This document shows, one piece after another, positions 2,107 to 60,331 of a DNA stretch of 64,000 nucleotides. How positions within the stretch are numbered: position 1 is the first letter of the stretch; every line of letters starts with the position of its first letter. Below the pieces are notes generated by a model. That model ran no database searches, was not told the DNA's origin, and worked only from the letters and a program-made list of their open reading frames with translations. The translations under genes and the position numbers were made by a program. This stretch comes from a virus, in IMG/VR virus record IMGVR_UViG_3300031772_000014, positions 1 through 64,000 of that record; one strand, given 5' to 3'.

Positions 2107-2634
2107 TAACTGACGCCAGCCCTGCATCATGCGGAGCTTGCCACCATTGGCTGCGGGCAGGCGAGTGACGTACCCGACCACCGGCTGGGGATCCGCCGCG
2201 CCACCATGGCCGACGATGCCGGAGAACTTGCGACCACCGAAGGTGATCGTTCCGACCTTGAGGGGCTGCATGACCGCCGTGATGGCAGCGCCGCCGGCGC
2301 CCACGACCGCCGTGGAGTCGAAGATGCGGGTGTCGGCCTCGTACTGCCCGAGGAAGAGCACGACGGTCTTCGTGCCCGCGATGGCCTGCACGTCGTAACG
2401 TCCGCGCTCCGCGAAGAGCGGGAACGAACGCACGAGGGCCGGGTCCAGACCCACCGCCACGTTGGACGCGCGGATGAGCTGGTAGCTGGCGTTGATGGTG
2501 CACCACTCGCCATCGACGAGGGCCACCGGATTGGTCGGTTGCGCCAACGTCGGATCTGCGAGGGGGAAGTCCCGCCGGTGAACCGGGAGGATATCCGAGG
2601 TGGGCTCGAAGTTGACTTTGCTGAGAGTGGACAT
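2107..2634 (-). CDS. Probable capsid decoration / head-stabilising protein
   Basis: About 175 aa from ATG 2634 (MSTLSKVNFEPTSDILPV) to an in-frame TTA at 2107-2109. Glycine- and valine-rich beta content and the position immediately before the capsid gene fit a decoration or head-fibre protein. By the standard code the frame has no stop until 1336 and would add about 257 residues, most of them read out of frame through the capsid gene; that tail is rich in R, H, P and G and looks like a non-coding shadow. Either TTA ends the gene or a one-base change upstream of the TAG at 2106-2108 (frame of the capsid gene) has been lost. Ribosome site: GGAGAAAG upstream of the ATG. Confidence 0.65.
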
Positions 2635-2650
2635 GAACGCTTTCTCCTTC

Positions 2651-3025
2651 TTACCTTGGCCGGGGGCCTAACGACATGATGACGGACTCGAAACCCGAGA
2701 CGTCGCCACCGTGATTCTTGCCCTCGTCGGAAGACGGGGACGCGAGTTTGTTCCACATGTCTGGACCGACCATGTCGACCGCCGCTCGTACGTTCTCGAG
2801 CTGCCCGGCATGTGCCTTCTTCTCGAGGGTTTCGATCAGTGACTCGGTCGGCTCATCGCTCAGCCCTTTGCGCTGCATCTCGGATGCGATTTTCTCGCAG
2901 TCCTGACGCAGCTCGAGGCGAGCTACTTTCTCTCGGAGCTCGTCCCGCTCTGCGGTGACGGCCCGAAGCTGTACGGCAGCTTCCTTGGCCAAACCTGCGA
3001 CCTTCGCCTGGTTGAGCTTCTCCAT
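2651..3025 (-). CDS. Small coiled-coil head protein, unknown
   Basis: 124 aa from ATG 3025 (MEKLNQAKVAGLAKEAAVQL), chosen because AGGAGG lies 10 nt upstream and the longer frame overlaps the preceding gene. Residues about 8-60 are a strongly helical, heptad-like segment rich in E, K, R and L, then a short acidic helical region. It sits between the large internal protein and the decoration gene, so scaffold or capsid-assembly roles are possible. An in-frame TTA at 2669-2671 lies six codons before the TAA stop, so the protein is either 118 or 124 aa. Confidence 0.65.
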   Translation of the reverse strand: MEKLNQAKVAGLAKEAAVQLRAVTAERDELREKVARLELRQDCEKIASEMQRKGLSDEPTESLIETLEKKAHAGQLENVRAAVDMVGPDMWNKLASPSSDEGKNHGGDVSGFESVIMSLGPRPR

Positions 3026-3027
3026 GA

Positions 3028-4536: not shown

Positions 4537-4551
4537 GCGTCCTCACCTTCA

Positions 4552-5433: not shown

Positions 5434-5447
5434 GGTTGAGAGCTCCG

Positions 5448-7160: not shown

Positions 7161-7915
7161 CTGAAGGAGGGGTTGTGGTGCGCCTGCTCCAGATCCCCTT
7201 GGTCCATACCTTGGATGTGTTTCTTGAAGCCCTCCAGGCGCATCTGGTTCTCGTGCTGCTGCTGCATGTTCCCCGCGCCGTGCTGCTGCTTCGTTTCCTC
7301 CATCTCGTGCATGTTGCGAAGCTGATGCCCCGCCGCGGCCGCGCCCTGCTCGAGGCCCATGCGGTGCTTGGCCTCCTCGAGTGACAGCGCGCCAGCCTGC
7401 TGCCTGTTGGATTGATGCTCGGCCTGCTGGCCCCTCATGCTGTCCCCGAGACCGGCCTTGGCACCTTCGCCGGCGCCGCGACCGAACGCCTCCATGACCA
7501 TGTTCGGGGCCATCTTGCCCTGACGTTCGAGAGCCTCTAGCAAGGTCCCTCCAGCCGTGTCGGGGCTCATGACCATCATTCGTCGCATGTACTGCCCGGA
7601 GATCATCGGGTCCTTGGTCATCTCCGGGGTCATGGTCCGAAGAGAGCTGAAGGCCGCGTTGAACTCTTTCGGACGCGAGGAAGCGTGCTCGTGAAGGTCG
7701 GCGTTGAACGGGGACTGCATCATGCTGTTGAAGTCCCGCTTCTTCGTCATCGCGTTGTAGATGTGCTGAATCGCGGGTCCCGCGGCAGCGACACCAGCCG
7801 TCGCCACAGCACCGAGACCTGCCGAGATGGCGGTCGTCTTGGCGTGCTGCCCCCAGTTGATCGGCATGCTGGCTTCCTTCGTCATGCAGAAGCGGTCGAG
7901 AGGAGTGGTCTTCAT
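7157..7915 (-). CDS. Virion-block protein with Gly/Ala hydrophobic segment and Gln/His-rich tail
   Basis: 252 aa from ATG 7915, which sits one base past the stop of the preceding gene; the stop overlaps the ATG of the protease gene (ATGA). The N-terminus has a short basic start and a hydrophobic Ala/Gly segment near 25-45 (AISAGLGAVATAGVAAAGPA) that could cross or perturb a membrane. Methionine-rich middle. The C-terminal third is Gln/His-rich and probably disordered or coiled. No family recognised; an internal or membrane-active virion protein is plausible from composition. Confidence 0.6.
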   Translation of the reverse strand: MKTTPLDRFCMTKEASMPINWGQHAKTTAISAGLGAVATAGVAAAGPAIQHIYNAMTKKRDFNSMMQSPFNADLHEHASSRPKEFNAAFSSLRTMTPEMTKDPMISGQYMRRMMVMSPDTAGGTLLEALERQGKMAPNMVMEAFGRGAGEGAKAGLGDSMRGQQAEHQSNRQQAGALSLEEAKHRMGLEQGAAAAGHQLRNMHEMEETKQQHGAGNMQQQHENQMRLEGFKKHIQGMDQGDLEQAHHNPSFR

Positions 7916-7916
7916 C

Positions 7917-9287: not shown

Positions 9288-10007
9288 ATGAATGGCGCCA
9301 AACAGAAGCGTGAGACCGGAGAGCTCGTAACCCAAACGGAGGCCGCGAAGCTACTGGGCGTGCCTCCGAAAGCCGTCCTTCGCTTGATTGAAAGGGGAAT
9401 CCTGGAGCCTGTAGCCCAGCGAGGGACCAAGAGGTGGTTCGACCTTCGAGACGTTTCCGCCGCTTCAGATGCCCTCGAGCAGAAGCTCAGCTTCGCAGGA
9501 ATCCTCGAGACGAGCGTACGTGCTCACACGGCCGCTACCAGGGTCGAACGCAAGATCAACGCCCTCATGGAGTTCTTCGGGATGGAGACACTTCAGCCAC
9601 AACCCACGAAGCCACAGGTCGAGGCTCACTTCGCCCAAGGTGACCGACTGGCCCTTGGGAGCGAGTCGCTATCCCCAGCGGACATGATGCGCTGGGCGAA
9701 GATCATCATGCGGATCGACAGCTCTTACCTGACCCTCGTGGGGCACTACCTCAAGAAGAAGGAACCATGGGTGGTCTTCCTTCTGGGAACCGACCGAGCA
9801 CTCAGGGCGGTCCCCATCGAGCAGATGCAGGACGACCCCGACACCGTGATGGCCGTCTCAATGCTCTCGTACGCGAGAAAGTGCCTGGTGGGTGAGGCGT
9901 ACATCTACTGCCGGTTCACGCTCGGAAGGCAGAAGGCCGACATCAAGTTCCCCGACAACGCTCGAGGAGAGATGAACGACATCATCGGGGCCCTTCTTCG
10001 TTCGTAA
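9288..10007 (+). CDS. HTH DNA-binding protein; candidate small terminase or regulator
   Basis: 239 aa, ATG 9288 preceded by AAAGGAAT. Residues about 13-60 (TQTEAAKLLGVPPKAVLRLI, then ERGILEPV) match the MerR/excisionase-type helix-turn-helix (HTH_17) with a following wing. The rest is an unassigned alpha/beta domain. It is a lone plus-strand gene inside the minus-strand virion block, convergent with the large terminase. Adjacency suggests a small terminase subunit, but the opposite strand argues for a separately timed regulator. Its TAA stop (10005-10007) is exactly the position where the terminase frame reads TTA on the other strand. Confidence 0.8.
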   Translation: MNGAKQKRETGELVTQTEAAKLLGVPPKAVLRLIERGILEPVAQRGTKRWFDLRDVSAASDALEQKLSFAGILETSVRAHTAATRVERKINALMEFFGMETLQPQPTKPQVEAHFAQGDRLALGSESLSPADMMRWAKIIMRIDSSYLTLVGHYLKKKEPWVVFLLGTDRALRAVPIEQMQDDPDTVMAVSMLSYARKCLVGEAYIYCRFTLGRQKADIKFPDNARGEMNDIIGALLRS

Positions 10008-11870
10008 CCCCTGCCAGAGGGGTCCCGTGTACATCGACTGGATGCCACCTCGATGCTGATCCTCTCGGAGAGGCGCGATGACGTCGGGCCGAGGGAAGCG
10101 GATCATCGAAGCCAGGAAGCAGTAGAGCACCGAGTGGAATGCATCGTCGGTTCGATCCTGCCGGTGGTTGTACTGCGTGATCCTGAGCTGCTCGTTGTAC
10201 TCCGAGAAGATGTTCGTGAAGTCCTTCCCGTAAGGCTCCTGGAACTCCTCCCACCTCGGAAGTTCGAGGACGTTCCCACGCTTGATGGCGTTGAAGATGT
10301 CGCTCATGACCTCGCTCCGGGCGACCTTGTACCGGCGGAACTTCTGGTCGTACTCGACCTTCTTCCGGATGCGCTGCATGTACTGAAACTTCGCCAGGCG
10401 CTGCGGCCCGAACTTCCGGGTGATGATGTCGTTCATGTGGAAGCCGCCGCCGTAGTCGGCTCCGATGATCATCACCTTGAACTTCTCGAGGATGTTGAGG
10501 ATGAGCTCCGTTTGGTACGGGATCTCCAGCTCCTGTCCCTCGAAGCGGTGGATGTAGAAGATCCTGAACGTGTTCCCCACCGCGTAAGTCCCGAGGCTGA
10601 TCACCGTGTAGCTGTTCTCACCGGTGCCCCAGTCGATGCCAGCGAAGACCGGGTTCTGGTACCCCGGGGGCTCGTACTTGGACATGCCTTCGTCCGTCAT
10701 CGTGGACTGCGCGTTGCAGCAAGCCTGGACCTGAGCGCTGCTAAGCGGACGTAGACCAGAGTCGAATGAAAGACCCAAGACCTCGTTGAAGAACTTGTCC
10801 CGTGGGTAGCGGCGGTAGTCGAGCGTGATCTCTTCCCATGGCTTCCAAGGAACCATGAGCTGGGAGATCCGGTAGCTCTCGAAGACCGCGTCCGGGCTCG
10901 CGTGCGCCCACGCGGCATCGGCGTGCTGGGGGAAGATCTGCTTCCCGCACTTCTCGCAGATGAGCGAGTCCTTCCCGATGTTGCGCTCACCGAGGATGTT
11001 CCAGAAGCGCCCCGCCCCGCCCTTGACGGTGGACCCGCAGGAGTCACAGGGGACCGCCCACTCCCCCTGAGTGGACATCGCCTGCCCTCGAGCCACGCCA
11101 GAACGGTAGAACTCGATGTTGTTGTCGAGGCTCTTCGGGGTGCCGGCGTAGATGAACTGCTTCAGGTTCTCGGGGGCGTGGCTGGTACACTGCTCGATGA
11201 CGGGGATGTTGTCCGAGAGAAGGTCTTGGAACTCATCGCACTCCAGCATGTACGCCGGGATACCTCGGGTTCGGTCGGCGTTCAGGAAGGCGTTGCGGAG
11301 CGTGATCTTGGAGAAGTTGTTGAACTGCTTCTCGAAGATGTTCTGCGCCATCATGTGGGCCGCGAAGGACTTCAACGTCGGGCTCGTCTCGATGGGCTCC
11401 TTGATTCGGTCGTTCGAGAACGTCTTCGTCTGGGTGCTCGTCGGGGAGACGTAGAGCGTCTTGTACCCAGGGATGAGGCACGAGAGCGAGACGGCCTTGT
11501 TCCCGAGGAAGGTCGACTTCTCAACCTGTCGAGCGCAGAAAAGAAAGATGCGCCGCGCCGGCGTGTTGTAGATCGGGATCATGTGCCGACGACCCTCGAA
11601 CGAGAAGTTCTCGTACGAGAGACCATCGGTCGTGGGCATCCTGAAAGCGAACTCAGTGAAGTGCGAAAGCATCACTGAAGCAGGAGGCTCTTCCTTCCTC
11701 TTCCCTCGAGGAATGAAGAAGGGGTTTACCTTCTGGTGCCTCCACTCGGAAGGAAACCACTCGGTGAAAGAAGCCGAATCCTCCGAGTCGTCCGTGTCTT
11801 CCAGGTCTGCTTTACTGAACGTCGCATCGTCCATGTATTCAAACCCACCTAGGTATCCCGAGCTAGTCAT
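10005..11870 (-). CDS. terL: Terminase large subunit
   Basis: About 621 aa from ATG 11870. The ATPase domain has a Walker A-like CARQVEKST at about 112-120, Walker B LECDE at 209-213 and a possible motif III (YAGTPKS) near 241. A zinc-ribbon insertion (CDSC at 275-278, CEKC at 305-308) separates it from an RNase H-like nuclease starting at GIDWG (411-415), with a second acidic site in GADYGGG and DRTDDAFH near the end. Role: packaging motor and DNA cutting. Alternative start ATG 11834 has a stronger AGGTGGG site. By the standard code the frame continues through TTA at 10005-10007 to 9858, antisense to the neighbouring gene. Confidence 0.93.
10007..10023. terminator. Short hairpin between convergent genes
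   Basis: ACCCCT-GCCAG-AGGGGT forms a 6-bp stem with a 5-nt loop directly after the TAA of the plus-strand HTH gene. There is no T tract on either side, so it may only slow or separate the convergent transcripts. Confidence 0.3.
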
Positions 11871-12159
11871 GTTCCCACCAAAGTCTACCGAGGATCCCAC
11901 AGAAGCCGTCAAAGGGCTCTGGGAAAGTATCTCGAGGGCTGGCGGTCATCTCAGCGACCAGGCCATCAGCGAACCCACCGAGCATGGGATGAAGTTCGTG
12001 ATCCGACTTGCTGAAGCCTTCACGGAAGACGGAAAGAGGTACGCCTTCGGGTTCATGAAAGCGTACCTCTTGGAGTGCGGGTGGAGGGCCAGCCGCATGA
12101 AGGTGGAGGCGAACGGCTACGTGACGTTCGAGGTCAGACCGGCCTCGAGGGCACGGTAG
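11869..12159 (+). CDS. Small plus-strand protein inside the virion block
   Basis: 96 aa, from ATG 11869 (MFPPKSTEDPTEAVKGLWES). The start overlaps the divergent ATG of the terminase in a CATG palindrome, and the end overlaps the next minus-strand gene by 42 nt. The middle is helix-rich, and the end (RMKVEANGYVTFEVRP) looks like genuine beta structure rather than an antisense shadow. Function unknown. Like the HTH gene, it lies against the direction of the virion operon, which suggests early expression. Confidence 0.55.
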   Translation: MFPPKSTEDPTEAVKGLWESISRAGGHLSDQAISEPTEHGMKFVIRLAEAFTEDGKRYAFGFMKAYLLECGWRASRMKVEANGYVTFEVRPASRAR

Positions 12160-16381: not shown

Positions 16382-17698
16382 TAAGGCCATGACAGCCGGA
16401 TTGCCGGTCGTGATTGAACCAACCGCCGGGGTCGCAATCGTGATGACGCCCGTGAAAGGCGAACCGTTCAAGAGCCCAGATACCTGCGCGACCGGGATCA
16501 CGATGGCCACGCTGTCGCCCATACGGGCCACGGGCTGCGTGCCTGACCCAAGACGAATCTGATCTCCAGATACCTCCGTGAGCGCTTGCCCGCCCACGAC
16601 CATGCTGGTCTTGGCCTTCAACTCTGCGTTGTCGAACGCCAAGGAGAGGCTGCCGGCACCCTTGAGCGAGAGACCCTTCTTGAAGTCGATCACGCACCCG
16701 CCCTCGGACCTGATGAAGACCCCGCCGGCCCGGTCCATGATGAAGTGCATGGTCATCTGCTTGGCCACCGCGGGGTTCGCCAGGTCTCCGGTACCGGCCT
16801 TGAAGCCACCTGGCGCGATGACGACCTCCATGACGACCGGGGCCGTGGTCCCGATACCGGCGTTCTGGAGGTCGCTCGTCGAGTCACCGAAGAACGTGCT
16901 CCCTACCTTGGGTGGCTCCGTGACGGGGTTGAGGACCTTGCCCTTCGCGATGCGGATGTCGCAGAACTGATCGTTGGCGAAGAGCCGATAGGTCTCCATG
17001 TGCTGTGCGGCCGGGTTGTCGATGGATGGTCCTTCCTGGATCCCCCACTTGATGGCCCCGCCCACGTTCTGGTGCTCGTAGTCCCCGGACACGTCGAAGA
17101 TCTTGTTCGCGAGCGGGATGTAGATGCGCTGCGCCAAGCTCGAGCCGCCGATCTGAAGAACGCCGCCTCGATGAAGGATGACGAAGTTCCCGTCACGTCC
17201 CTTCATGAACACGTCGCCCGGCTTTATCTCCGGCCTACCGCCATCGAAGCGGGCGTCGTTATGCGGGAACTCCACCTTGCCGCTGCGGGAGCGTGTGCCC
17301 TGCGGGGCGTCGGTACCGGTCAGGTCACCCTGGTCCACGAGCTGATTGCTCTTGATGGACGTCGTGATGGCATCGTCAGGATTCCCGAGCGGCTTGGACG
17401 TGTTGCCAGCCTGCTGCATCGGCATGATGAACGAGTTCACGAACGGCGGAGACGAATCGCTGGGGATGCACACGAAGCACACCGCACCGACGTCAGGCAT
17501 CACGAAGATGCCCTCACCGCTGTTGTAGTGCATGTACGGCGAGCTGACCTGGATGTCGTAGTAGTAGTGCCGGTCGAACTGCGAGATGCAGTCCACGGTG
17601 TAGTTCACCAGGTTCACGTTCATGACCCGGCACTGGACCATCTTCGACGGTCGCTGCCCTTCCGACCGGCCACCGCCACCATCATACCTACGCGTCAT
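16382..17698 (-). CDS. Baseplate spike / gpV- or gp5-like protein
   Basis: About 438 aa from ATG 17698, overlapping the RNA polymerase stop as ATGA. Residues 20-110 (VQCRVMNVNLVNYTVDCISQ, then GIFVMPDVGAVCFVCIPSD) fit the OB-fold of gpV/gp5/VgrG spike hubs. The C-terminal part has the spike-tip pattern ARMGDSVAIVIP ... GVITIATPAVGSITTGNPAV. It would form the membrane-piercing trimer of a contractile tail. The frame reads TTA at 16382-16384 right after GNPAVMA, a natural end; by the standard code it runs on to 16235 with an Arg/Ser/Cys/Pro-rich tail over the next gene. Confidence 0.75.
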
Positions 17699-20600
17699 AA
17701 GTACACGTGGGAGGGCACGACGTTTTCGCCCTTGGCGTTGCGAGCAAGCCGAGGAAGACCGAACTCAGCCCCGTAGACCACGCCAGGAATCGGATGGGCT
17801 CCGTGGATGCTGGAAACCATCCCCGTCGCGGCAGCTTCCGAGATGGTCGTACGGAGACGTTGATGCTGAAGGCGGGCCATCCAATCATCATGCAGAGACA
17901 AGGGGAGCATGTCGACTCCCATGAGCACTGGGCTGTGCAGGATCTGACCCTTGCCACCGGTCTTCAAGTCTCGGTTCATCTGGTTGATCACAGACGTCGG
18001 ATAGAACTCTCCCCGCATCAAGTGCGGGTGGTCGCCAGGATCTTCCACCTTCGTGATGTTCGACATCGCACGAACCATGACCTCTATGGCGCGTCGACGA
18101 ACACCTTCAGCCTTGTAGAGATCGTGGATCTCATCGGCCAGATGGTTCTGTACGTGGTCCATGCTCTTGGTCGCCTTGTAGAGATCGTGCGGGTTCACGA
18201 CCGTACGAAGCGGATCTGACAAGGAGCGCCCTGCCTCCACGTGCATCCCCACGGTCGGTGGCGTCCACAGGGCCTGACCCTTCGGCGGAATGGCTCCTGG
18301 AAGATTGATGTGAAGGTCCAGACCATTGTCGTCCTTGCCGACGAAGTGCGATGTGCCGCCGACCCAGATGCGCGTACCCGTGGACTCCTTGTCGATCTTG
18401 TCGATCTTCCCAGAGGCCATCGAGACCGTGGCGGAGTTCGGGATCTTCTTGTGCAGCTTCGTGAGCTGCTCGAAGCGAGCGAAGGAGTTCACGGCCTTTG
18501 AGCCGCCGCCAGACTCAGCAACGCCTCCCGTGTGGAAGAGCTTCAGGGTGAGCTGCACCGCCCGCTCCCCAACCGCGTGCGCGGCCTGGATGCCCACGTT
18601 GGTACCGAACTGGTGCTCCTCCCCATCGACAGAGGGCCCCATGCACTTCTGGCAGATCCCTTTCGGGCTGTCGCACTTCAGCGGACTTCGCACCAGCACC
18701 TTGGCGTTCTTGTCCACCGCACGCATCTGACCCACCAGGTCCGGGGTGACCAGCGTCCCCGCGGGGATGTGGAGCCCACCGGACCTGAAGTCTGCTGCGA
18801 GGTGCCGGTCATGCACGTCATGCTCGGAGAGCGCCATCGAGATGCCCTTCGAGGTCCCGCAGTCGTGCTTGTCGATCATGAGGTTCATCGAGGTGTTCAT
18901 CAAGAGTTTCGACATCGCGCCGGGCTCCTGGACCTCCTGGACCTTCATGACGGTTCCTCGACGAGCTCCGTGGAGCTGCGTCCAGTACTCCCCTAGGTCG
19001 AGACCTTCCGCGTAGCTGTTCTTGATCGGAACCGGGATGTTCTGGCTCTTGGAGTCCTTCATGATGAGCGGGGACATCACCATCTGCTTGTACTGGTCCC
19101 AGCTCGGCTTGGTCCCGGCGGCGGCCATCATGAACAAGTTCGAGGGGTTCTTCTTCGCCTCCTCCTTGTGCTGCGTCTGCATGTCCTCGCCGGCCTTGAG
19201 CCAGACGTTCACGGACTGCCGGTCCTTATCCTTCTCGTTGATGGTCTTGCTGCCGTTGATGGCATCCACCTTCGTCTGCGCGGCCTTGAGGATGGGGTCC
19301 CTGACCGAACGGATGGGATCGAAGTCCTTCAGGCTGAGCGAGTGCGTCCCGATGGAGAGGTGCTTGTCGGGGATGAGGTTCGTCTTGATGATCCCGTACG
19401 AGGCGTCGTACCCCAAGTCCTTCACGTCGTTGATGACTCGACCGAAGTCATGCCGGTGATCTTTGCCCAGGGTATCGAGCATGGTCACCAACCCCTTCTT
19501 GTCCACCTGGAAGTCCAAGTCATGCAGAATCTTGTTCTGCATCGGCTTCGGGAGGATGTTCGCCAAGAGCACGCGACCAGCCGTCGTCTCCTTGCCATTC
19601 AGGTGCACGATGTCCGTGTAGTCAATCTTGCCCGTGTGCAGGGCAGAAACGACCGATGCGTGGTCGGCGAACTTCTTGTCCGTCTTCTTGTCCGTCCGCG
19701 AAAGCTTGTAGAGACCCAGAGCAGACTCCAACGTGGGGCGGTACATGACCTCCCCGGAGGACTCGCTGAAGATGTTCTTCGTCGGGTACATCCTCTCGGC
19801 TTCCTTCACGGCCTCGTGGCTGATGGGGACGTAGACCGACATCGCGTCTCCGTCGAAGTCAGCGTTGAAACCACCCGTCACGAGAGGGTGGATCTTGATG
19901 GCGCTGCCTTCGACCGTCTTCGCCTTGAACGCCTGGACGGAGTACTTGTGCAGCGCAGGGTCACGCTTCAAGATGACGGGGCGCTCGCTCATGACCTGGT
20001 CGAGAGCTTTCCAGACCATCGGGTCCTTCTTCCCACGGTGCACCTCAGACAGCTTCTCCTGGGCATCGAGGGTGTGCGCGGCCGTGCCTTGCTGCACAAG
20101 CTGTCGAACCACGAACGGACGAAAGAGCGTGAGAGCGGCTTCCCTGGGAAGACCAACCTCGTCGAGCCCAAGGTTCGGCTCTGGGACGATGGTGGAGCGC
20201 ATGGTCATGTCCTGCTTGCGCTGCGCCAACGTCTTCTGGAAGTAGCCTTCCTTCGGCTGAGAGCCGGCAATAACCTCGAGGATGCCCTTCTCCTTCTTGT
20301 CCTTGTTCACGCTCCCGATGCCCATGATGGCTTTCACGCCGTCGTAGTAGGAGGTGCGCTGCTCTACCTTCCCCGCATCCGTGAGGTTCTTGGAGAGGAT
20401 GGGATCCTTGAGCTTGGTGTTGATCTGCGCGAACTTCATGTAGAGGCCGTTGATGTCCTCGTACTTGATGGCTCCCTGCTCCATCTGATTGATGGGACGG
20501 GTGTTCGGCGGCATCACGGGCAGGTTGTGGAGGATGTACGCCTCAGAGGGCTTCATCCCCAAGTCCTTGAGGACCGTGAGGTACTTCACTTTCTTGAGCG

Positions 20601-23600
20601 CTCGGTCCACGTTCCCAGGTGACGTGGACCCCAACTCGAGCTTCGCTTTCGCTAGGTCCTTGGTCACGTCGATCCTGTCGAGCAGCGTCTTGATACCGGG
20701 GCCTCCACGGACACCTGCCACGCTGGTAGTGATCTCTCCCGTCCCAGGCACGACACCCTTGGTGCCGTCGATGATGGAGTTGAACTGCTTCTGGGTGATG
20801 CCCGTGAGCTTCTTGATCGGCTCCTGGAAGAGCGGGTTCGGAAGCGCTTCCGCGAGCGCGATGTGGGACCACTTAGTCCCACCGTGACCGCCGGTCACCT
20901 TGTCATCGAACAAGCCACCAGGCATCGGCTCGTACTCACCGCTCTTGTTCGTCTTCGCCCGGACGGGTGAGTTACCAGCCGTCTTCAACTCACCCGCGGA
21001 CATGTTGAGGATGTGCTTGTCCGTCAAAGGGGAGACGTGGAACTCATGCCCCTTCTTCTCGATGTTGATGCCAGTACCTTGGAGCATCTGGGTGAAGCGG
21101 TGGAAAGCGAACGTCGGACGAGGCGGCGGCGGCGGCATCCCGTTCTGAATCGCGTTCCAGATGTCGTTGTGCTGGTTTCCTTGCGTCCATCGCTTCGCTT
21201 CGTTCGTCTGGATGTCGTTGCCCTCGGACTTCCAGGTCTGCATCTCTCGGATGTTCGCCTTCGCGCCGTGCGCGAGCATCGAGTAGAGCCCGAGAGCTCC
21301 CAGGCTCTGACCGCCGGCGTGACCGCCACCGGTAGGCTGGAGGAAGGAGTCGTACCCCTCCGCCTCGGTCAGCTTCGGCAAGCCCATCCCGGAACGTACC
21401 GAGAGCTTCTTGTCCACCTGGTGGACCAACTTCATCATGTACTGCTTGCCCACCAGAGCTTCCCCGATGGGGAGTTTCGTCATGGGATCGATCAGGTGCT
21501 CGGTGTCGCTGAGCCCGTGCTGCTTCAACTCACCCTTGACCTTCTCGAGGTAGTCCCCCGTGGTCGAGTCGAAGTTATGGACGAGGTACGGCTTGCCGGT
21601 CTTCTCGGCAATCTTGGACACAGCCGTCTCGAGCACCTGCCCGATGTTCATGCGTCCAGGGACGCCAGCAGGGTTCAGCAAAACCTCGGTGGGCTTCCCG
21701 TCTGCCGTGTGCGGCATCTCCTTGTTTGGAAGCACCAAGGTCACGATGCCCTTGTTGCCGTAGCGCCCGGCAATCTTGTCACCGACCTGCATGGGCTCGA
21801 TGGTGCGGACATGGACGGAGATGTTCTCTCCGGTCTTGTGGACCCCCACCACCTCACCCTTGAAGTCAGACGTCCACCGGACGGACTTGTCCGTGTGCTG
21901 GTTGATCATGCTCTTCCGAAGAGCCGCCACACCCGTCCGGTCCTTGAGCTGGTACGGCATCGTCGCGAGGATGAGCGGGTCACCAGACTTGACCGTGGCC
22001 CCAATCTTCACGACCCCGTGCTCATCAACGTTCTTGTACTGCTCCGCCGTGAAGGCTGTGAGGTGTTGCTGCCGGAACTTCTCCGGAGAGAACACCATCC
22101 CCTCCTTCTTCTCGACGTCATGCTTGTGCAAGTGCTCGCTGGAGAGCATCTGCGCGGCTGTCTCGCTGATGACCACCCCGTCCTCGAAGTTGTAACCCTT
22201 GAAGGGGATGTACGCGACGCGGAGGTTGGTACCCAGCGCCAACGCCCCGTTCTTCGAGTAGTTCGTGTCCGCGACGATCTGCCCAGCCTTCACCTTGTCC
22301 CCAACCTTCACGAGCGGGGTCGAGTTCATCGAGCTCTTGGCGTCGTTCAACGGGTAGTGATGGTAGAGCTGAATCTCGTGCTCGCCGTCCTTGCCCTTGA
22401 TCGTGATGCCGTCCTTCGTGATCCCTGAGACGACGCCATCCGTCCTCGAGAAGTGCGCGGTCTGCTTCCCCACCAGATGCTCGAAGGAGTTGATCCCCGT
22501 GGTGGTGGGAGGCGTGGCCACCTGGACGAGCGGTGCTTGGCGACCGATGAGGGAAATCGCCTGCTCCATGTGACGGCTGCCCATGCTCGCGCGACCACCA
22601 GAGCTGTTGCCCAGGAACGGGATGAGGTTCGAGGTGACGTTGAATAGCTGTGACGAGTGCCGGAGCACGTAGTCGGCTTCGACGAACTTCTTCTCTTCGA
22701 TCTTGTTCCCCTGCCCGACGATCTTGATCATGGGACCAGTCGGCACGGGCTTTCCGTCCTTCCAGGTCACCTGGTCCGGCAGGGCGACGTTCGAGGCGAT
22801 GAACTGGTGCGGGCTGATGTCCTCCGTCTTCCCGGTGCGGATGTTGAAGACCGGAATCTTCGCCTCGTTGCCGACCTTCTTCAAACCAATCGGCAGGCGC
22901 AGGGTCACGCCCGTCTTTTCACCCTCGGGGGTGTTGATGGGATCCAAGAAGCCGATGTGCGAGACGTTGATCATCTTCGCGTCAGCCGTCACCTGCCGGT
23001 CGCTCTTGATACCGCCCGGTCCCATGATGGTCGTCTGCATCGCCGCAGACACCATCTCGAGAGGATTGATCTGCTTGGCCGGGTTCGACAGGGCACTCTT
23101 CAAGAACAGGGTGCGGACGGGCTCGTTGAAGATGTCCGCTTTGATGACATCTCGAACCCCCGTCGCCTTGGGGTTGTTGAGCTGCCGCTGCATCTTCATC
23201 TGGATGACCTTGGAGGACACCCGCATCTGATCCTGGATGAAGTCCCCTGTGGAGCGCAGGGTCTTGAACGTCAGGGAGTCCCGGTCGTCCTCTGGGGCAC
23301 CACCGTGAAGGGCCAGCAACTTGTTGGACGCCCGGTGAAGAGCATCTCCGGTGACGTGCTCGAAAGCCTTACCCAGCGTGACCTGGGTCACGTCCGGGTT
23401 GATCTTCGACTCACCCATGACTTTGATGAGGTGGTCCTCCGCCGCTTCCTTGGAGGGAGCCGGGAGCTTGGTGGTGGTCTTGTAGAACTGCTCGACCGCA
23501 CCATCCACCCGCTTGCCCTTCTTGTTGGCCTCGAAGATCTCCTTGCCCCACGACTTCTCCAGAGCCTCGTCGCTGACACCCAACGTCTTCATCAGGGGGT

Positions 23601-24093
23601 AGAGGGGGATCTTGGCCTTCTTGTAGTCCGCGACGAAGACCTTCTTCTCCGGGTCGAAGACAACGTCGAAGGCAGAACGTCCAACGACGTTGAACCGGGA
23701 CTCGAGCTCTCCGTTCGCTCGACGCCTCGTGTAGACGCCAGGCTTGAGCTGCCACTGGTTGTCCACCTGGTACTCCTGCCCGTCCAGGATGTAGGAGTAC
23801 CGGCGGGTCATCTTCGGAAGGTCGGCCAGACGAACCTTCTTCTTGTCAAGGGTCTTGCCAGTCTCGTTGTCCTTCAACGAGAGCATCCCATGGATGGGAA
23901 CGGTCCAGCTCTTGCCGTTGATCTTGGCCTCGTGCTGCGACTTGATGTCGTCCGGGTGAAGCTTGTCGTCGATCAAGACCTCGTCGAGATGCAGCGTCGT
24001 GGTCCTACCTTTGAAGGGGAACGAGGACTTCAACCCTTCCACGGTCTTGTCCCGAAGGTGGTCGAACGCATCTTGAGGATTCAGGTAGGCCAT
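17695..24093 (-). CDS. Fused RNA polymerase beta-beta' subunit
   Basis: 2132 aa from ATG 24093 (MAYLNPQDAFDHLR; AGAGG upstream). Beta part, about 1-985: NTPEGEKTG at 387-395, RASMGSRHMEQ at 501-511, GYNFEDGVVIS, GDKIAGRYGNKG at 771-782 and QPTGGGHAGGQ from 919. A proline run at 987-991 precedes the beta' part: LFDDKV...GHIA-like clamp region without the usual four-Cys zinc site 1, KRDPALHK, catalytic NADFDGD at 1410-1416, bridge-helix region, and zinc site 2 with C1745, C1807, C1814 and C1817, then QAAHAVGERAVQLTLKLFHTGG. Role: DNA-dependent RNA synthesis. No alpha, omega or sigma gene is visible. Location among virion genes suggests packaging in the particle. The last sense codon is TTA before TGA. 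Confidence 0.97.
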   Translation of the reverse strand: MAYLNPQDAFDHLRDKTVEGLKSSFPFKGRTTTLHLDEVLIDDKLHPDDIKSQHEAKINGKSWTVPIHGMLSLKDNETGKTLDKKKVRLADLPKMTRRYSYILDGQEYQVDNQWQLKPGVYTRRRANGELESRFNVVGRSAFDVVFDPEKKVFVADYKKAKIPLYPLMKTLGVSDEALEKSWGKEIFEANKKGKRVDGAVEQFYKTTTKLPAPSKEAAEDHLIKVMGESKINPDVTQVTLGKAFEHVTGDALHRASNKLLALHGGAPEDDRDSLTFKTLRSTGDFIQDQMRVSSKVIQMKMQRQLNNPKATGVRDVIKADIFNEPVRTLFLKSALSNPAKQINPLEMVSAAMQTTIMGPGGIKSDRQVTADAKMINVSHIGFLDPINTPEGEKTGVTLRLPIGLKKVGNEAKIPVFNIRTGKTEDISPHQFIASNVALPDQVTWKDGKPVPTGPMIKIVGQGNKIEEKKFVEADYVLRHSSQLFNVTSNLIPFLGNSSGGRASMGSRHMEQAISLIGRQAPLVQVATPPTTTGINSFEHLVGKQTAHFSRTDGVVSGITKDGITIKGKDGEHEIQLYHHYPLNDAKSSMNSTPLVKVGDKVKAGQIVADTNYSKNGALALGTNLRVAYIPFKGYNFEDGVVISETAAQMLSSEHLHKHDVEKKEGMVFSPEKFRQQHLTAFTAEQYKNVDEHGVVKIGATVKSGDPLILATMPYQLKDRTGVAALRKSMINQHTDKSVRWTSDFKGEVVGVHKTGENISVHVRTIEPMQVGDKIAGRYGNKGIVTLVLPNKEMPHTADGKPTEVLLNPAGVPGRMNIGQVLETAVSKIAEKTGKPYLVHNFDSTTGDYLEKVKGELKQHGLSDTEHLIDPMTKLPIGEALVGKQYMMKLVHQVDKKLSVRSGMGLPKLTEAEGYDSFLQPTGGGHAGGQSLGALGLYSMLAHGAKANIREMQTWKSEGNDIQTNEAKRWTQGNQHNDIWNAIQNGMPPPPPRPTFAFHRFTQMLQGTGINIEKKGHEFHVSPLTDKHILNMSAGELKTAGNSPVRAKTNKSGEYEPMPGGLFDDKVTGGHGGTKWSHIALAEALPNPLFQEPIKKLTGITQKQFNSIIDGTKGVVPGTGEITTSVAGVRGGPGIKTLLDRIDVTKDLAKAKLELGSTSPGNVDRALKKVKYLTVLKDLGMKPSEAYILHNLPVMPPNTRPINQMEQGAIKYEDINGLYMKFAQINTKLKDPILSKNLTDAGKVEQRTSYYDGVKAIMGIGSVNKDKKEKGILEVIAGSQPKEGYFQKTLAQRKQDMTMRSTIVPEPNLGLDEVGLPREAALTLFRPFVVRQLVQQGTAAHTLDAQEKLSEVHRGKKDPMVWKALDQVMSERPVILKRDPALHKYSVQAFKAKTVEGSAIKIHPLVTGGFNADFDGDAMSVYVPISHEAVKEAERMYPTKNIFSESSGEVMYRPTLESALGLYKLSRTDKKTDKKFADHASVVSALHTGKIDYTDIVHLNGKETTAGRVLLANILPKPMQNKILHDLDFQVDKKGLVTMLDTLGKDHRHDFGRVINDVKDLGYDASYGIIKTNLIPDKHLSIGTHSLSLKDFDPIRSVRDPILKAAQTKVDAINGSKTINEKDKDRQSVNVWLKAGEDMQTQHKEEAKKNPSNLFMMAAAGTKPSWDQYKQMVMSPLIMKDSKSQNIPVPIKNSYAEGLDLGEYWTQLHGARRGTVMKVQEVQEPGAMSKLLMNTSMNLMIDKHDCGTSKGISMALSEHDVHDRHLAADFRSGGLHIPAGTLVTPDLVGQMRAVDKNAKVLVRSPLKCDSPKGICQKCMGPSVDGEEHQFGTNVGIQAAHAVGERAVQLTLKLFHTGGVAESGGGSKAVNSFARFEQLTKLHKKIPNSATVSMASGKIDKIDKESTGTRIWVGGTSHFVGKDDNGLDLHINLPGAIPPKGQALWTPPTVGMHVEAGRSLSDPLRTVVNPHDLYKATKSMDHVQNHLADEIHDLYKAEGVRRRAIEVMVRAMSNITKVEDPGDHPHLMRGEFYPTSVINQMNRDLKTGGKGQILHSPVLMGVDMLPLSLHDDWMARLQHQRLRTTISEAAATGMVSSIHGAHPIPGVVYGAEFGLPRLARNAKGENVVPSHVYL

Positions 24094-24156
24094 CGGTAGG
24101 AACCTCTTGGCACGGTACAGCACCGGCGAGTAGCCGAGCAAGAAGACGTGAAGATA

Positions 24157-50549: not shown

Positions 50550-51028
50550 TGATTCGCATCGACCTCGTGGGCCTTCCGCCGTCGTCCAACAACGCCTACG
50601 TGGAACTGCCACCTATCGTGAGGGGAAAGAAAGTCATCCCCCGCGGTAGGCGGCTCTCGGCGGAAGGTGAGAAGTACAAGCGGGAGACCATCACGCACAT
50701 CGTGAGGAACTACCCGAATGAGCTCTCGCAGGTAAAGCCCGACGTTGGGTTGTTCCTGTACGTGCGCTTCTTCTTCGAGGCGCTCTACAACAAGGGGTGG
50801 CCAAAAACAGCGGAAACACGGTACAAGAGGATTGACGTTACGAACCGGGTCAAGCTCCTCGAGGACTGCGTGAAAGATGCCTGCGGCATCGATGACTCGC
50901 AGAACGAGTTCGTTCTCCTCGAGAAGCGCCAAGGCCCGGACGCGACGGTTGTATTCATCTGGAACCTAGACAAGGAGGTGCCCCCTGGACTTGACGAGCT
51001 CTCACGACTCTTACTGGGACCGTTGTAA
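50549..51028 (+). CDS. rusA: RusA-like Holliday-junction resolvase
   Basis: 159 aa, ATG 50549. N-terminal PPSSNNAY, then RLSAEGEKYKRE, and the catalytic block RIDVTNRVKLLEDCVKDACG with Asp96, Asn99, Lys102 and Asp106, then DDSQ at 115-118: the RusA pattern. Cuts four-way junctions as a dimer. A TTA codon (51011-51013) sits five codons before the TAA stop, so the product may be 154 aa if TTA terminates. Confidence 0.85.
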   Translation: MIRIDLVGLPPSSNNAYVELPPIVRGKKVIPRGRRLSAEGEKYKRETITHIVRNYPNELSQVKPDVGLFLYVRFFFEALYNKGWPKTAETRYKRIDVTNRVKLLEDCVKDACGIDDSQNEFVLLEKRQGPDATVVFIWNLDKEVPPGLDELSRLLLGPL

Positions 51029-53879: not shown

Positions 53880-54077
53880 TTACCTGTTCGGGACGTGGTC
53901 CGCGATGATCACTTCACCGTTCGCGTGAACGGTAATGACCCCCACGGTACCCTTGCGTTGACCCACGGCCTGGATGGCCTGCCAGATCTTGATCCCAAGT
54001 GCCTGGTCCATCATCGGGTCCACGTTGTTCACGTTGATTACCTGATGTGGCCCGAAGGTGAAGCTGTATGTCGACAT
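53880..54077 (-). CDS. 65-residue protein, unknown
   Basis: 65 aa, ATG 54077 with the tail gene ending 9 nt upstream; an AGGTCACG-like ribosome site is weak. Beta-strand character (STYSFTFGPHQVINVNNVDP; GVITVHANGEVIIADHV). Too small to classify; a small tail or adaptor protein is possible. Confidence 0.5.
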   Translation of the reverse strand: MSTYSFTFGPHQVINVNNVDPMMDQALGIKIWQAIQAVGQRKGTVGVITVHANGEVIIADHVPNR

Positions 54078-54086
54078 ATCGTGACC

Positions 54087-55100
54087 TCAGAAGGCAGGGA
54101 GGACAGTTCCGTTGACCCACACCGTGACCCGCCCAGAGCTCAGGACATGCGGTGCGGCGGTCTCGAAGGTGGTCTTGAGGGTGATCCTATCCACGGCAAT
54201 CACACCCACAGTCCCTGGGAAACTTACCAGGGCTTGTTGACTTCCACCGCTTATCGCAGTCCACGCTGACAATCGGTCAGCGGATGGCCATCCCTCGTTC
54301 ACGGAGAAGTTCCTGTCAGATAGGCCTGCCCCGTATGACCTGTCTGGCCCAGTAACTTGGAAGTCCCTGAGCGTGGTGGGGCTCCTTTGTCCAGCGGAGA
54401 ACCCTAGCCAGTAAAGAGTCCAAGGGTCTCCGTAAAGGATCTCGAAGCTACCGGCTGGGTTCAGGGACTTGATTTTCAGGAAGTTGCCGACAAGGCTCAC
54501 CGAGGCCCCGCCACCAAGTTGAACCTGTAGCGCGACCTGTAGCGCCAGGAGACTGGTCCAGTTTAGGGTAGTTACAGTGACTACCCCGACCACCCCATCC
54601 AACTTGTATCCGAAGAGACCGTCGTAGGTCACGAAGGGGTACGTGTAGAGCCCTACATCCGCGCCAAGGATGGACGGTTCCAGCGCACCGATCCGCAGCG
54701 TACAAAGAGGGACCAACAAGGTCCCGGCAGCAGCAAGTCCTGCCGAGAGCGTAGCGGTGGTGGTCGTGTCTCCGGCCGAACCAGGGACGATGATTGGGTG
54801 CGACAACGCCAGGCCGATTGACTCGATGAGGAACGCCGGTTTCTGCGGAACCGCCACGGTGTCGACAAGGTGCCCCGGGTTCAGCGGCGGCAACCAGATG
54901 TCATTGAAAAGGACAACCCCACCAGGCCCAGACGAAAGACCATTGAGCACGATGTCTCGCGCGAAGGAGAACTTGGCCCCAACGCCACCACGTAGGTCAG
55001 CGTTCGTGGTACCGACACCGTTGGGGTACGTGGTGATCTCCGGGTCGTACAGGAAACCACGCTGCGTGTTGACGAAGAACTTTGGGTAGGTGCGGTCCAT
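54087..55100 (-). CDS. Tail/baseplate protein, second member of cassette 1
   Basis: 337 aa if started at ATG 55100 (MDRTYPKFFVNTQRGFLYDP), 9 nt after an in-frame TTA and preceded by GGAT. Beta-rich with long hydrophobic strands (KLDGVVGVVTVTTLNWTSLL). By the standard code it is the C-terminal part of a 1118-residue frame 54087-57443. The cassette layout (large gene then smaller gene) repeats at 57454-60331, which supports a separate gene. Likely a tail fibre or baseplate component. Confidence 0.55.
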   Translation of the reverse strand: MDRTYPKFFVNTQRGFLYDPEITTYPNGVGTTNADLRGGVGAKFSFARDIVLNGLSSGPGGVVLFNDIWLPPLNPGHLVDTVAVPQKPAFLIESIGLALSHPIIVPGSAGDTTTTATLSAGLAAAGTLLVPLCTLRIGALEPSILGADVGLYTYPFVTYDGLFGYKLDGVVGVVTVTTLNWTSLLALQVALQVQLGGGASVSLVGNFLKIKSLNPAGSFEILYGDPWTLYWLGFSAGQRSPTTLRDFQVTGPDRSYGAGLSDRNFSVNEGWPSADRLSAWTAISGGSQQALVSFPGTVGVIAVDRITLKTTFETAAPHVLSSGRVTVWVNGTVLPAF

Positions 55101-55109
55101 GTTCGATCC

Positions 55110-57443
55110 TAACGGTACCGGGTAACCGCCGGTCCTCTCCCAGAAGATGTTGTTTCCTAGCTGCCTGCCCACGTAAACGTCGATGGCCCCATTCGGCCCA
55201 AAGGTCGGGGTCAAGAAGATGTCCAGTAGGTTGAAGAACGTGGGGACCGGTACCAGGAAGGCGCTATCGGAGAAACATCCGATGAGAACCAATGAAAGGC
55301 TGGTGAGTGGGTTCTGTCGGTGGATCACCAACCTCACCTCGCTATCGATCAGCGCATTGATCGACACGTTCCTGAGAGCAACAACCAGTAGCGGGCTTGG
55401 ACCCACGTACGAGGTAGAGATGAAGATGGACAGACCATCGTAGGTGGGGACCGGGACGATGTTGCTCGCGGTAACGATGGTCTGGATGCTCTGGCCAAGC
55501 TGCTTGCCGGCCACGATGCCGTTGTAGTTGTTGAGCGGCCCGTACGCCAACACGTTGCCGGCAAGGGCCAGGATGTTGCCCTGCTGGGAGATGATATCGT
55601 CGATGAAGGTGGCGGACTTCATGGAGATGCTGCCCACGAATGAGAAGATCCCACCAGAGCCGGTAAGTATCGACTTGGTTTCGTACGTGGACCCGGTGTT
55701 GCCGACCGACAACACTCTGTTGAAACCACCCCACGCGAAGGCGGTGTCGTTGAAGGGATCTTGACCTTGCGCGTATACCTGCATGAACCCGGTCGGTACT
55801 TGTTGAAGCAGCAAATCTGTAACCTTGGGGGGTTGGGCGTACACCATTCCCCGCGGGATGCTGCCGAACGGAAGCGAGCCGTCTGCCTCTCGCTTCTCGT
55901 CGATGCCATCACCCACGAAGAACTCCATGCTGAGCCAACGCGTGAGTAGTCCCTGGGTGCCCGTGAGGACATCCGGTTGCTCCCCATCGACAGACACAAT
56001 CAAGCAGTTCTGCGCCGAAGAGGCGAAGAGCTTCTCGATGAAGTACGTCCGGCGGCGTAGCGCAAGGCCGGTCGAGTCGACGTGCTCTATCTCGAGCATG
56101 TCGTACCCAACAGAGATGGCCGAGATGCGGTCAGGACCAACCGTCAGCCAGAACCGGTTTGGTGCGGTCATGGTCAGAAGGGTTCGCCCCGGTACCGTGA
56201 CCTTGTCGAATACCACCAGGGAGTTGGGCGTGATGGCCGTGAAGTTGCTGGACTCTGAGGGCTGCGTGTCCGTCCGGGGAGATACCCCCAGGAACTTCGC
56301 CATGCCCGGAAGCGGGGCACTGTGGGTAAGGCTGATCAGAGCGTTGGTCAGCGAACGACCACCGTAAGCCACGAACCCAGAACCGCCGCCGAAACCCTTC
56401 TGGGCACCAGGACCGGAGATGTCGAAAAAGTCATCGAGATGCGCGGTCCAGATGGCATCCAGAGGATCCAGGTACATGGTCCGGTACGCAGAGTCGGTGT
56501 TCCAGAAGTCACGCTGGCTCCACCCGCTCATGGCCGGGCCGGTACGCTGGTACCAGCTACCACCACCGGCCTGGTTGTGCTGGATGGCCGGCAGCCCGCT
56601 GTTGGTCGGTACCGTCGCGGGGATGTCGGCCACGGTACCCCGGCGATACCGCTCGTTCATGCCACTCAGCGCCAGGTCCCAGACCGTCGACACGTAGGGG
56701 CTGTTCCACCACGTGGATACACTGGGGGTTCCGTTCAACCTGAAGAGCTGCTTGACTACTTGATCCGCGGCCCCGACCTGCCGGCGCCCGATGGGGTCCG
56801 GGGTAGCGGTGCTGAGGTACCGGTGGACCCGGTAGTGAACCCGGAAGACCGACCAGGGCCGACCAGGCACGATGGGGACGTTGAGGTTGAGCGTCACCGC
56901 GCCGGCGGGAAACCCGGAACCGATCACCGCGCCCGCGATGCTCGCCACCACGACCTTCGTGGCCGGGGGCACGAAGAGCTCATTCCCGAGCGTGTCCGTG
57001 ACGACGAATAGTTCCTGCGGGCTCGTGGCAGGTGCATCACTCACAAACGGGAAGTCCGCGGCAGGGATGACCACACTGGTAAGGTTGCCAGGGCCTGCAT
57101 TGCTGTACCCACGGAAGGTAGGAACCGCAAAGCTGTTGTGGAGGAGGTCATCGAGGTAGTCGATGTTCTCCGCCAGGGCGCCATGGCCCCTGTTCGCGTC
57201 TGACGCGGTCGCGTCCTCCCCGAAGGCCCAGAAGTACGTGCCCTGGTTCGGCCCACCGATCTTCTGCCCCACAGCACCGAGGAAGTTGTCCACCGGGGCC
57301 GAGCCGAGACCACCCACACCACCGCTCGCGACGTTGATGTAGTCGTAGGTCTTGCCGGTGGTCTGTGCGGCCGAACCGCCAGTCGGAATCGAAACGGCGA
57401 AGAGCCAGGCGGGGTTCGTGAAACGGTGAAAGCGGGTGGGCAT
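55110..57443 (-). CDS. Large tail fibre/baseplate protein, paralogue 1
   Basis: 777 aa from ATG 57443 (MPTRFHRFTNPAWLFAVSIP) to TTA 55110-55112. It is clearly related to the protein at 58139-60331: FHRFTNP/FHRFVDP, YDYINVASG/YDRVNIVSG, NRGHGALAENIDYLDDLLH/NRGFKALGENTDFLDDVVH, and a shared IDVY/VDVY strand about 20 residues before the end. Beta-rich with Gly loops. In the standard code the frame continues for 340 more residues to 54087. Adhesin or fibre role inferred from size, beta content and duplication. Confidence 0.65.
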
Positions 57444-57453
57444 CTGCGGCTCC

Positions 57454-58128
57454 TAACGGGAGGGCTGCGAAGTCGATGACTTCGTGACCGATGATGTTGA
57501 CGAGGAGCACCGGCGGAACCCCAGCAAACCCCGTGATGGCGTTCACGAAGCTTTCGTTCCTGACCTTGATGGCAAGCTCGAAGGAAGTGAGAAAGCCTCC
57601 GATGGCCAGCGGGACAGCTACAGTTTCGAGCGTTCCTGGGATGGCGAGCAAGAGCGTCTGAGCGGCAGGTAGCGCGACACCCGTACTTGACCAGATGGCG
57701 CCGCCAAAGTCGTTCTTGGGGGTGGTGTCGTTACGACGAATCTCGATGAAGAACGACGCACCAGCGGTCTGCGGGTTGATGAGCCCGATAGCCCCACCGG
57801 TCAGGACTTCCACCTGATCGATGACGAAGAATGTCTTGTCAGTCGAGAACTTGTCAACCGGGCGAGAGAACTGAAGGATACGGGTCCAGAAGTTCGCAGG
57901 CCCAGGGTTGAAGAACTCCGTGGGGTAGATGAGCGCGAAGTCGTTCACCGCACCAGCCGCGATGTTGTTCTGTAGCTGTACCCGCGTCTGGATGCGAACC
58001 TGGTTGCCCGTGTACCCCCTGGGACGAGGAGGGTCTCCACTTCCGTTCACGCCCACAGGCGCAGGCGAACCCCCCGAGGTTGGGATCCACTGGTAGCGCG
58101 ACGAGTACCCTGAAGAGACCTTGGACAT
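57454..58128 (-). CDS. Tail/baseplate protein, second member of cassette 2
   Basis: 224 aa, ATG 58128 (MSKVSSGYSSRYQWIPTSGG) to an in-frame TTA at 57454-57456; the ATG of the next gene is 10 nt further with TAGGAG as its ribosome site. Beta-sandwich-like pattern (KTFFVIDQVEVLTGGAIGLI). By the standard code it would run to 57148 with an Arg/His-rich tail that is a shadow of the next gene. Likely structural partner of the large protein encoded just upstream. Confidence 0.6.
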
Positions 58129-58138
58129 GGTGGATACC

Positions 58139-60331
58139 TAACGTAGCGTTGTAACGTTTCACCGACATGAGGATCTTGCTCATACCACCAGCACCGTGGG
58201 TAACCAGGCCCGTGTAGACGTCGACGTACCCGACCGCGTTCGAGAACCAGCAGTCCGACAAGTTCTCGAACACGTAGTTGCCGGGCCATGCGCTCAAGTC
58301 TGCAATCTGCATTGGTGCACCGTCGTGTCGAATGACCCACGTGATCACGCGACCCATGTCGTTCGAGTTCACGTTCAACGACGGGAACGTGATGGCCACG
58401 ATGGGGGACGTGGTGGGGCCCACCGTGGAGTACTCGTTGTAGTCGGACGTCTCCGCGTCAGCCCCGAACAGCAAGGTCACGATGAACGGGAGGATGAACG
58501 TGGTCGTCGCCCCAGGATCCCTGGCCACGACCTTCTTGGCCTCCACGGCACCGTCGCCACGGAGCACGCCGTTGTCGAAGTACTTCCCGGTGACCGCGAA
58601 GTTCAAAGACGAAGTTCGGAACCCGCCCCACGCCAGGGCATTCGTCTTCCCGGTCTCATTTGAAGCGTAGAGCTTCGCGGAGTAGTCATTCCTGTCCGCG
58701 TTGGTTGGGATGGGCGTTGTATCCAACTGGTGCGGGGCCGCGTAGAAGAGCCCGTCGAACTTCAGCTTGCTGGTCGTCCCGATGTCGTACCCGGCCACGC
58801 CGTCGCTGACCCCGAACACCATCGAGCGCCATCGAATCGTGCAAGGCGTGTTGGGCAGGAACGTGGGGGTCGTGCCGTCCATGTTCTGGATCATGGCGAC
58901 CGTGCCGCTGAAGAGGTCCACGATCACGTACGTCTTCGGGGCAGCCCCGGGGGAGAGCTGGATCTCCACTAGGTCGTACCCCTTGGCCACGGAGGTCCGC
59001 CACTCACCGAGGACGTTCGCGGCCCAGAAGTCCGGGATCGACAGGATGACCCAGCAGTCCGCTCCAGCGTTGAGCAACACCGCCGCGGTGTCTTGTCCAA
59101 CGAACGTGAACGAGCTTCCGGGGATGATGCCGGACATCGGGTGGTTGGAGGTATGCAGGAAGGAGGAGTACCCGGACCCCTGCCGGTTGACCCCGAACCC
59201 AGTGTCGTGGGCCCCGTAGGTCATGCGGCGCTGCCCGTAGACCACGAACCCGGAGGAGCCTCCCTTGTGGAGGTTTCCCTTGTCCTCAATCCAGGCAGAC
59301 CAAAGAGCATTGAGGGGATCGAAGTACTCGAAAGTTGCACTTAGCTGGCTCAAGGCGCTCACCATCATGGGTGAGTGCCTGGATAGGTAGTTGCGCTCTC
59401 CCCAGAACCCGGGCTGTGCTCCGGGCGCCGCGTTCGCGGCGTTCGGGGTCATGTACGAAATGGGCGCCGGCACCGTGTCGATGAGCGGGTCGGTGTTCCG
59501 CAGCAACATCTGGTTGAGCCCGTGATGGTTCAACTGCCAGAGGCTGTGCTCTCCGCTCCCAACACCGTCGCCAGAGTACCAGGTGGAGTGCGCGTACGCC
59601 TCGGGCTTCCCATCAAGTCGGTACAGGAAGCGGGCCACCGCACCATCAATGCCGTTCGGGTACGGGCCATGAATGTCGGGCGTGATGAGCGCCAGGTTGC
59701 TGGCCCTACGGTAGTTGACGAAGATGCCCCCGCTGAACGGAGGGGTGGGCGTGAACCCGTTGAACGTGACCGTGACCGGGCCAGGCACGAACCCGCTCCC
59801 GATGGGGGACGTGCTGGCCACCACACGTAGGTTGTCGTTCAACGCAGGGATGAAGTACGCATCCGGGCTGAACACGCCACCGACAAACCCATTCGTGATC
59901 GTGAAGAGATCATCGAAGGTCTCCGGGCCAGACCCAAGCCACACGTATGACCCAGGCGGGAACGTGTATGAGTTGATAGCGGGACCGAAGAGCGGAGTGG
60001 CCACGAAGACAGACTCACGTACCCCGAAGACCTGGTGCACGACGTCATCTAGGAAGTCGGTGTTCTCCCCGAGGGCCTTGAAGCCACGATTGACGTTCGC
60101 GCTGTACCCCGGGTCGTCAAAGCCGACCCAGTACGTGAACGGCGTCGGCCCAACCAGCGGGGGAGGGTTCGCGAACGCCGTACCGCCACCACCGGTCGCC
60201 CCGGAGACGATGTTGACTCGGTCATAGACCACACCGCCCGAGGCAGGTTGAGGCTGCGAGGTACCGGGACCCAGAGGAATCGCGACGTACCCGGTCCAGG
60301 TCGGATCTACGAATCGGTGGAAGTTCGACAT
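58139..60331 (-). CDS. Large tail fibre/baseplate protein, paralogue 2
   Basis: 730 aa, ATG 60331 (MSNFHRFVDPTWTGYVAIPL) to an in-frame TTA at 58139-58141. Paralogous to the 55110-57443 protein along much of its length, including the N-terminal FHRF block and the C-terminal VDVY strand. By the standard code it continues to 57854, out of frame through the next gene, giving a Cys/Arg/His-rich tail. Duplicated fibre-like genes often carry different receptor specificity. Confidence 0.65.

Follow-up and report, generated by a model that had tools for sequence, protein, structure and literature searches.

A partial sequence of a large tailed phage raises the question of whether a sense codon has become a stop: in its genes the triplet TTA is found in frame almost only where those genes end, and at several of these positions the homologous genes of related phages have ordinary stop codons. 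The record, IMGVR_UViG_3300031772_000014, has 75,150 bases, and the window, that is the whole stretch of DNA analysed here, is its first 64 kb (64,000 nucleotides; GC 61.5%), in which genes for a family A DNA polymerase, a DnaB-like helicase, a terminase and a major capsid protein are present. Its relatives are put at 160-195 kb, the long ones among those retrieved with the RNA polymerase measuring 120-194 kb. A near relative was absent from the GenBank phages searched, searches of plasmid and phage DNA likewise returned nothing near, and a terminase search of genome contigs gave no relative. The RNA polymerase, a single-chain beta/beta' protein of 2147 aa (17701..24141, minus strand) recognised by rpoB and rpoC models and carrying a DFDGD motif at residue 1428, retrieved 12 relatives from IMG/VR at 52-64% identity, ten of which were taken whole, giving 11 records for comparison together with the present one. 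Two further sets comprised 80 loci with a terminase large subunit (TerL) alignment and 80 loci with the capsid gene; because these sets overlap and partly represent the same phages, the locus counts are not all independent. The beta/beta' fusion is kept across this large-phage clade, and the two PHROGs over 17701-24141 are of unknown function; in one relative (G011, L081:871-2373) the polymerase contains an in-frame insert of ~500 aa with intein-like matches.

We propose that UUA serves as a termination codon beside UAA, UAG and UGA in the translation system of this phage, a reading of one fragmentary record to which we assign a probability of about 0.78.

Placement of TTA within the genes

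Genes were called over the whole 75,150-base record with the three ordinary stops and with TTA scored as neutral. Nine in-frame TTA triplets were found after a coding start, at 2107, 2669, 10005, 16382, 17698, 51011, 55110, 57454 and 58139, the same coordinates and frames as those listed in an earlier note made from the sequence, while all other in-frame TTA of the record lie upstream of start codons. No TTA was found in a settled gene interior among the ~22,700 called codons of the full record. The note had placed every TTA at a gene end or within six codons of it, which holds, except that 55110 is ambiguous and possibly interior. The coding signal stops 0-3 codons from the TTA at 2107, 2669, 16382 and 57454 and 10-26 codons from it at 51011, 10005 and 58139, the exception being 55110, where it does not end at or near the TTA. 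Judged by coding potential alone, the terminal zone contains 8.1% of in-frame codons but seven of the nine TTA (binomial P = 7e-7), and the codon with the next highest terminal-zone share is AGA, with 42%.

The absence of TTA from gene interiors is accompanied by continued use of its neighbours in the code, as the note had stated, with 79 CTA and 227 TTG in the record; calculated as TTG x CTA/CTG, the expected number of TTA is ~34. This depletion is real but not diagnostic alone, for the scarcity is clade-wide: the nearest long relative (G012) has three TTA in 52,301 codons against 47 expected, and another (G008) has five in 49,142. Scarcity of TTA is thus ordinary for the clade; its position in this phage is not. 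TTG, TCA and CTA remain ordinary sense codons, and the three standard stops are all still in use. Code 15 and code 4 were considered for this phage and rejected: TGA and TAA stand at conserved exact ends, and TAG terminates the DnaB-like helicase gene.

The nine sites do not weigh equally as evidence. Five of them are decisive (2107, 10005, 16382, 57454 and 58139), the remainder being neutral or ambiguous, and the run-ons of ~145 to 725 nt given in the note are correct. An ordinary stop follows six codons on at 2669, one at 17698 and five at 51011. The TTA at 2669..2671 (minus strand) precedes a TAA by these six codons and is a neutral site, its homologues ending within ~3 codons though off the exact column. 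The fused RNA polymerase gene ends with the TTA at 17698..17700 (minus) and a TGA immediately after it, the A of this TTA being also the first base of the next ATG (TTATGA); the protein ends ...VPSHVY[TTA]TGA here and ...HHY* in relatives, and since TGA follows, this TTA is functionally neutral. At 51011..51013 (plus strand), in a RusA-like gene ending in TAA, the site is ambiguous, because its column holds a stop (TAG) in G012 and leucine in G003, G007, G008 and G009.

TTA in the stop columns of homologues

For each TTA we aligned the protein encoded upstream of it to its counterparts in the ten relatives and read the codon in the end column, which showed three genes with TTA in the stop column and no relative with TTA there. 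The proposal of the note that UUA is a stop, or else an unreadable codon, is supported by this placement. In a wider survey all gene products of the 11 records were searched against each of the other ten, and we counted which codon stood at the exact end column. Standard stops predominate throughout; this record has TTA at 4 of its 16 sites, the ten relatives at none of 541. The homologue stop columns with TTA are those of TerL, of the genes ending at 2107 and 16382, and of the RNA polymerase gene. Only at 2107, 10005 and 16382 would a frame of this record extend >25 codons beyond an exact stop column, and all three are TTA. A further candidate run-on at 7457 was discarded, being a weak match (34% identity) that finishes two residues short of the end and thus not a clean end.

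The TTA at 2107..2109 (minus) ends a 181-aa gene that lies upstream of the one for the major capsid protein, with ...GWRQ[TTA] here against ...GYRS* in relatives, where TAA is used by G012, G003 and G005. Its homologues stop at the TTA column in 35 of 53 cases in the TerL loci set and at offset 0 in 48 of the 80 capsid loci, the latter always with TAA, TGA or TAG and never with TTA. Without a stop at 2107 the frame would extend for 257 codons into the capsid gene, an overrun of ~725 nt. The latter gene (939..2060, minus; PHROG 2522 major head protein, E 2e-14) is 74-84% identical in relatives and has its own end at a conserved TGA. The TTA at 16382..16384 (minus) ends a 438-aa gene located after the RNA polymerase gene; the sequence ...GNPAVMA[TTA] corresponds to ...GNPAVLA* in homologues, 21 of the 27 alignable relatives in the TerL loci set end at offset 0, and without a stop the frame would extend for 49 codons. 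Both alignments argue that TTA acts as a stop at these two sites.

Could these genes simply have lost their stops, TTA remaining an ordinary leucine codon and the products carrying long C-terminal extensions that overlap their neighbours? The frames do stay open past TTA, and TTA is leucine in the relatives; the extensions, however, of 48-257 codons, would cross conserved neighbours and have no counterpart in relatives. Furthermore, independent stop losses would not all give TTA, because only ~1 in 1,000 triplets of the window is TTA. We regard such stop loss as very improbable.

One triplet is shared by two genes. The TerL gene (10008..11912, minus; PHROG 675, E 3e-50) ends with ...GPLWQG[TTA], and relatives end with ...QG followed by TAG, TAA or TGA. 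From the 80 loci, 60 relatives have alignable ends, of which 55 stop at exactly the TTA column, and the stop codons of these relatives are TAG in 38, TGA in 16 and TAA in six, TTA never being used. Without a stop at 10005 the TerL frame would extend by ~49 codons. The same bases, 10005..10007, read on the opposite strand, are the TAA of a convergent helix-turn-helix gene (9288..10007, plus; Pfam HTH_17). Homologues of it occur in ~50 relatives, and many of these end no more than a few codons away. In three relatives the convergent stops of the two genes overlap as CTAG or TTAG (G012:19512-19515, G003:56402-56405 and G011:28645-28648). Both genes of this phage end on one triplet, an arrangement that works only if TTA is a stop. 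The TerL frame of two relatives, G008 (L067:4536-7289) and G004, contains an in-frame insert of ~340 aa without a family match, and the TerL of G011 is also split.

The shared triplet also bears on the reliability of the record. If the record were faulty or had been altered, the bases at these triplets would not be those of the real phage, and the trait is indeed unique to this record among the relatives examined. Random error, however, would yield many different codons at gene ends and not TTA alone, and at 10005 no standard stop can be given back to TerL without removing the TAA of the helix-turn-helix gene, whose next in-frame stop lies 248 codons on; an error or alteration at that position is thus disfavoured. 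The window is identical to those stretches of the record that were retrieved, so that an alteration confined to the window is ruled out, though not one of the record itself. A faulty record is therefore an unlikely source of the pattern.

Tail-gene sites and the mode of termination

Two tandem modules occupy 54087-60331 (minus), each consisting of a fibre-like gene of 730-777 aa and then a smaller gene without found relatives. The TTA at 58139..58141 (minus) ends the 730-aa fibre-like gene (58142-60331); the next ATG follows after 10 nt, and if translation did not stop the overlap with the next gene would be ~275 nt. At 57454..57456 (minus) a TTA ends the 224-aa gene, the coding signal finishing one codon before it and the next ATG lying again 10 nt on, and the overlap without a stop would reach ~295 nt. 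From this arrangement both TTA appear to act as stops.

The 777-aa fibre-like gene is followed, in the same phase, by a frame of 337 aa, and the TTA at 55110..55112 (minus) lies between them. The frame is open beyond this TTA, and a new ATG with a ribosome-binding-like site (TTAGGA) is found four codons on. A stop is favoured by the paralogy between the 777-aa part and the 730-aa gene (29% over 639 columns). Homologues of this gene in relatives range from 611 to 1072 aa, two of six being long (1,064-1,072 aa), and homology searches with the 224-aa and 337-aa tail genes found no relatives. Given the varying lengths of the homologues and the lack of a found relative for the 337-aa part, the TTA is probably a stop but may be an interior leucine.

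The context of the sites allows a further mechanism to be weighed, in which a +1 frameshift at TTA reaches a TAG and termination is ordinary. The necessary TTAG is present at five of the nine sites, but 10005, 16382 and 51011 read TTAC and 17698 reads TTAT, with 10005 and 16382 being decisive. Moreover, the TAA stops of this phage show the same pattern in the fourth base (G 8, C 5, T 1) as the TTA sites (G 5, C 3, T 1), and TTAGGA overlaps the ribosome-binding site of the next gene. Frameshifting is thus hardly credible as the explanation.

A different possibility is that UUA has no meaning at all: in a host without tRNA-Leu(UAA) ribosomes would stall at UUA, a rescue system would end translation, and TTA would be tolerated only at gene ends. 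An unassigned codon is known elsewhere, CGG in Mycoplasma capricolum being cited as such in PMC8629427. Such a state would account for both the interior absence and the end placement, and it agrees with the fact that no tRNA gene was found in the 75-kb fragment. On the other side, in at least five structural or packaging genes a bare TTA without a backup stop takes the place of the efficient stops of relatives. Rescue by tmRNA tags and degrades the products, so that these proteins would be marked for degradation. An unassigned UUA therefore seems improbable to us, and the bare UUA at the ends of structural and packaging genes fits termination better than an unreadable codon; we infer that ribosomes release the protein at this codon.

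Origin of the proposed change and relation to known codes

Several TTA codons of three relatives (G003, G006 and G008) stand at positions where homologues have leucine, and G012 has one TTA inside the RNA polymerase, at a column that is mostly histidine in the others. TTA being leucine in relatives, the new meaning would have arisen on the branch of this phage and the change would be recent; the TTA-ending trait was absent from all relatives checked (80 TerL loci and 80 capsid loci, partly the same phages). We suggest a scheme in which TTA nearly vanished from this GC-rich clade, after which standard stops became TTA at ~9 of 70 genes in this lineage. At 2107, a single A-to-T change would convert the TAA of the nearest relatives into TTA.

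A release factor search of this record and its relatives found none encoded. Since the phage records have no release factor and the fragment no tRNA, the simplest place for the change is the host, although the part of the phage genome that this record lacks could encode a UUA-reading factor. It is rather likely that the phage and, by implication, a free-living bacterial host use UUA as a true stop through a release factor that reads it. By analogy with organelles, such a host would be without a working tRNA-Leu(UAA), and its release factor, most likely an altered RF2, would read UUA, as has been suggested for labyrinthulean mitochondria and peDinoflagellate plastids. The RF2 genes of genome contigs were scanned for a non-serine residue in the SPF tripeptide, whose serine by our own reading is Ser204 of PMC12574857, considering only substitutions starting with G or C and leaving out Ser-to-Cys. 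Gly, Ala or Pro was found in its place in L173, L179, L172, L177, L169, L171 and L178, with Gly in two Armatimonadota MAGs (L173 and L179). These two were rejected as TTA-stop organisms, having TTA inside genes (18 in 62,981 and 9 in 22,468 codons) and tRNA-Leu(UAA); they read TTA as leucine, and a Ser-to-Gly RF2 alone is thus no sign of UUA termination. Among the relatives, G002 (L004:1364-5504) carries 30 tRNA genes in ~4 kb, tRNA-Leu(taa) included, and the gene at G012:97360-97445 (minus), which lies between tRNA-Arg and tRNA-Tyr, is tRNA-like and has an anticodon loop of eight bases (actc).

The changed codes known from phages and bacteria turn a stop into an amino acid or swap amino acids, and UUA has so far been known as a stop only from a few mitochondria and plastids. 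If true, the present case would be the first sense-to-stop reassignment in a virus and outside organelles, caught soon after the disappearance of the codon in a phage lineage, and would suggest a bacterium whose release factor has a new specificity. Codon capture would moreover be seen here directly, with TTA nearly lost from a clade and then taken up again as a stop by one lineage. UUA stops would escape standard gene callers, which would fuse or over-extend the genes, and code-inference screens limited to amino-acid meanings are blind to a sense-to-stop change, so that more cases may be hidden.

In the bldA-type case of Streptomyces, TTA is read as leucine and regulates translation. TTA is rare both in these high-GC bacteria and in the phage, but in the latter it occupies the stop column of homologues. 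Phages with code 15 (TAG as glutamine) or code 4 (TGA as tryptophan) likewise depart from the standard bacterial code; there, however, a stop has become sense, whereas here sense would have become a stop and TAG, TGA and TAA all remain stops. The earlier note rightly named table 23, used in mitochondria of Thraustochytrium and other Labyrinthulea, as a precedent, and in it too TTA is an added stop missing from gene interiors, although those are organelle genomes and this is a tailed phage with terminase, capsid and DNA polymerase genes. The UUA stop of labyrinthulean mitochondria is attributed to an mtRF2a with altered Ser204, and a closer precedent is available in the same study (PMC12574857, 2025): peDinoflagellate plastids have UUA and UCA stops and an RF2 (pRF2) that has lost the conserved Ser204, which the study calls the first sense-to-stop change outside mitochondria, and Marsupiomonadales mitochondria have UUA and UUG stops with an altered mtRF1a. 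As in this phage, UUA is confined in both to 3' ends where homologues stop; the cognate tRNA is missing from those genomes, and in the phage no tRNA gene was found in the 75-kb fragment. The differences are that the release factors altered there are organellar and that in the phage TTA alone would have changed.
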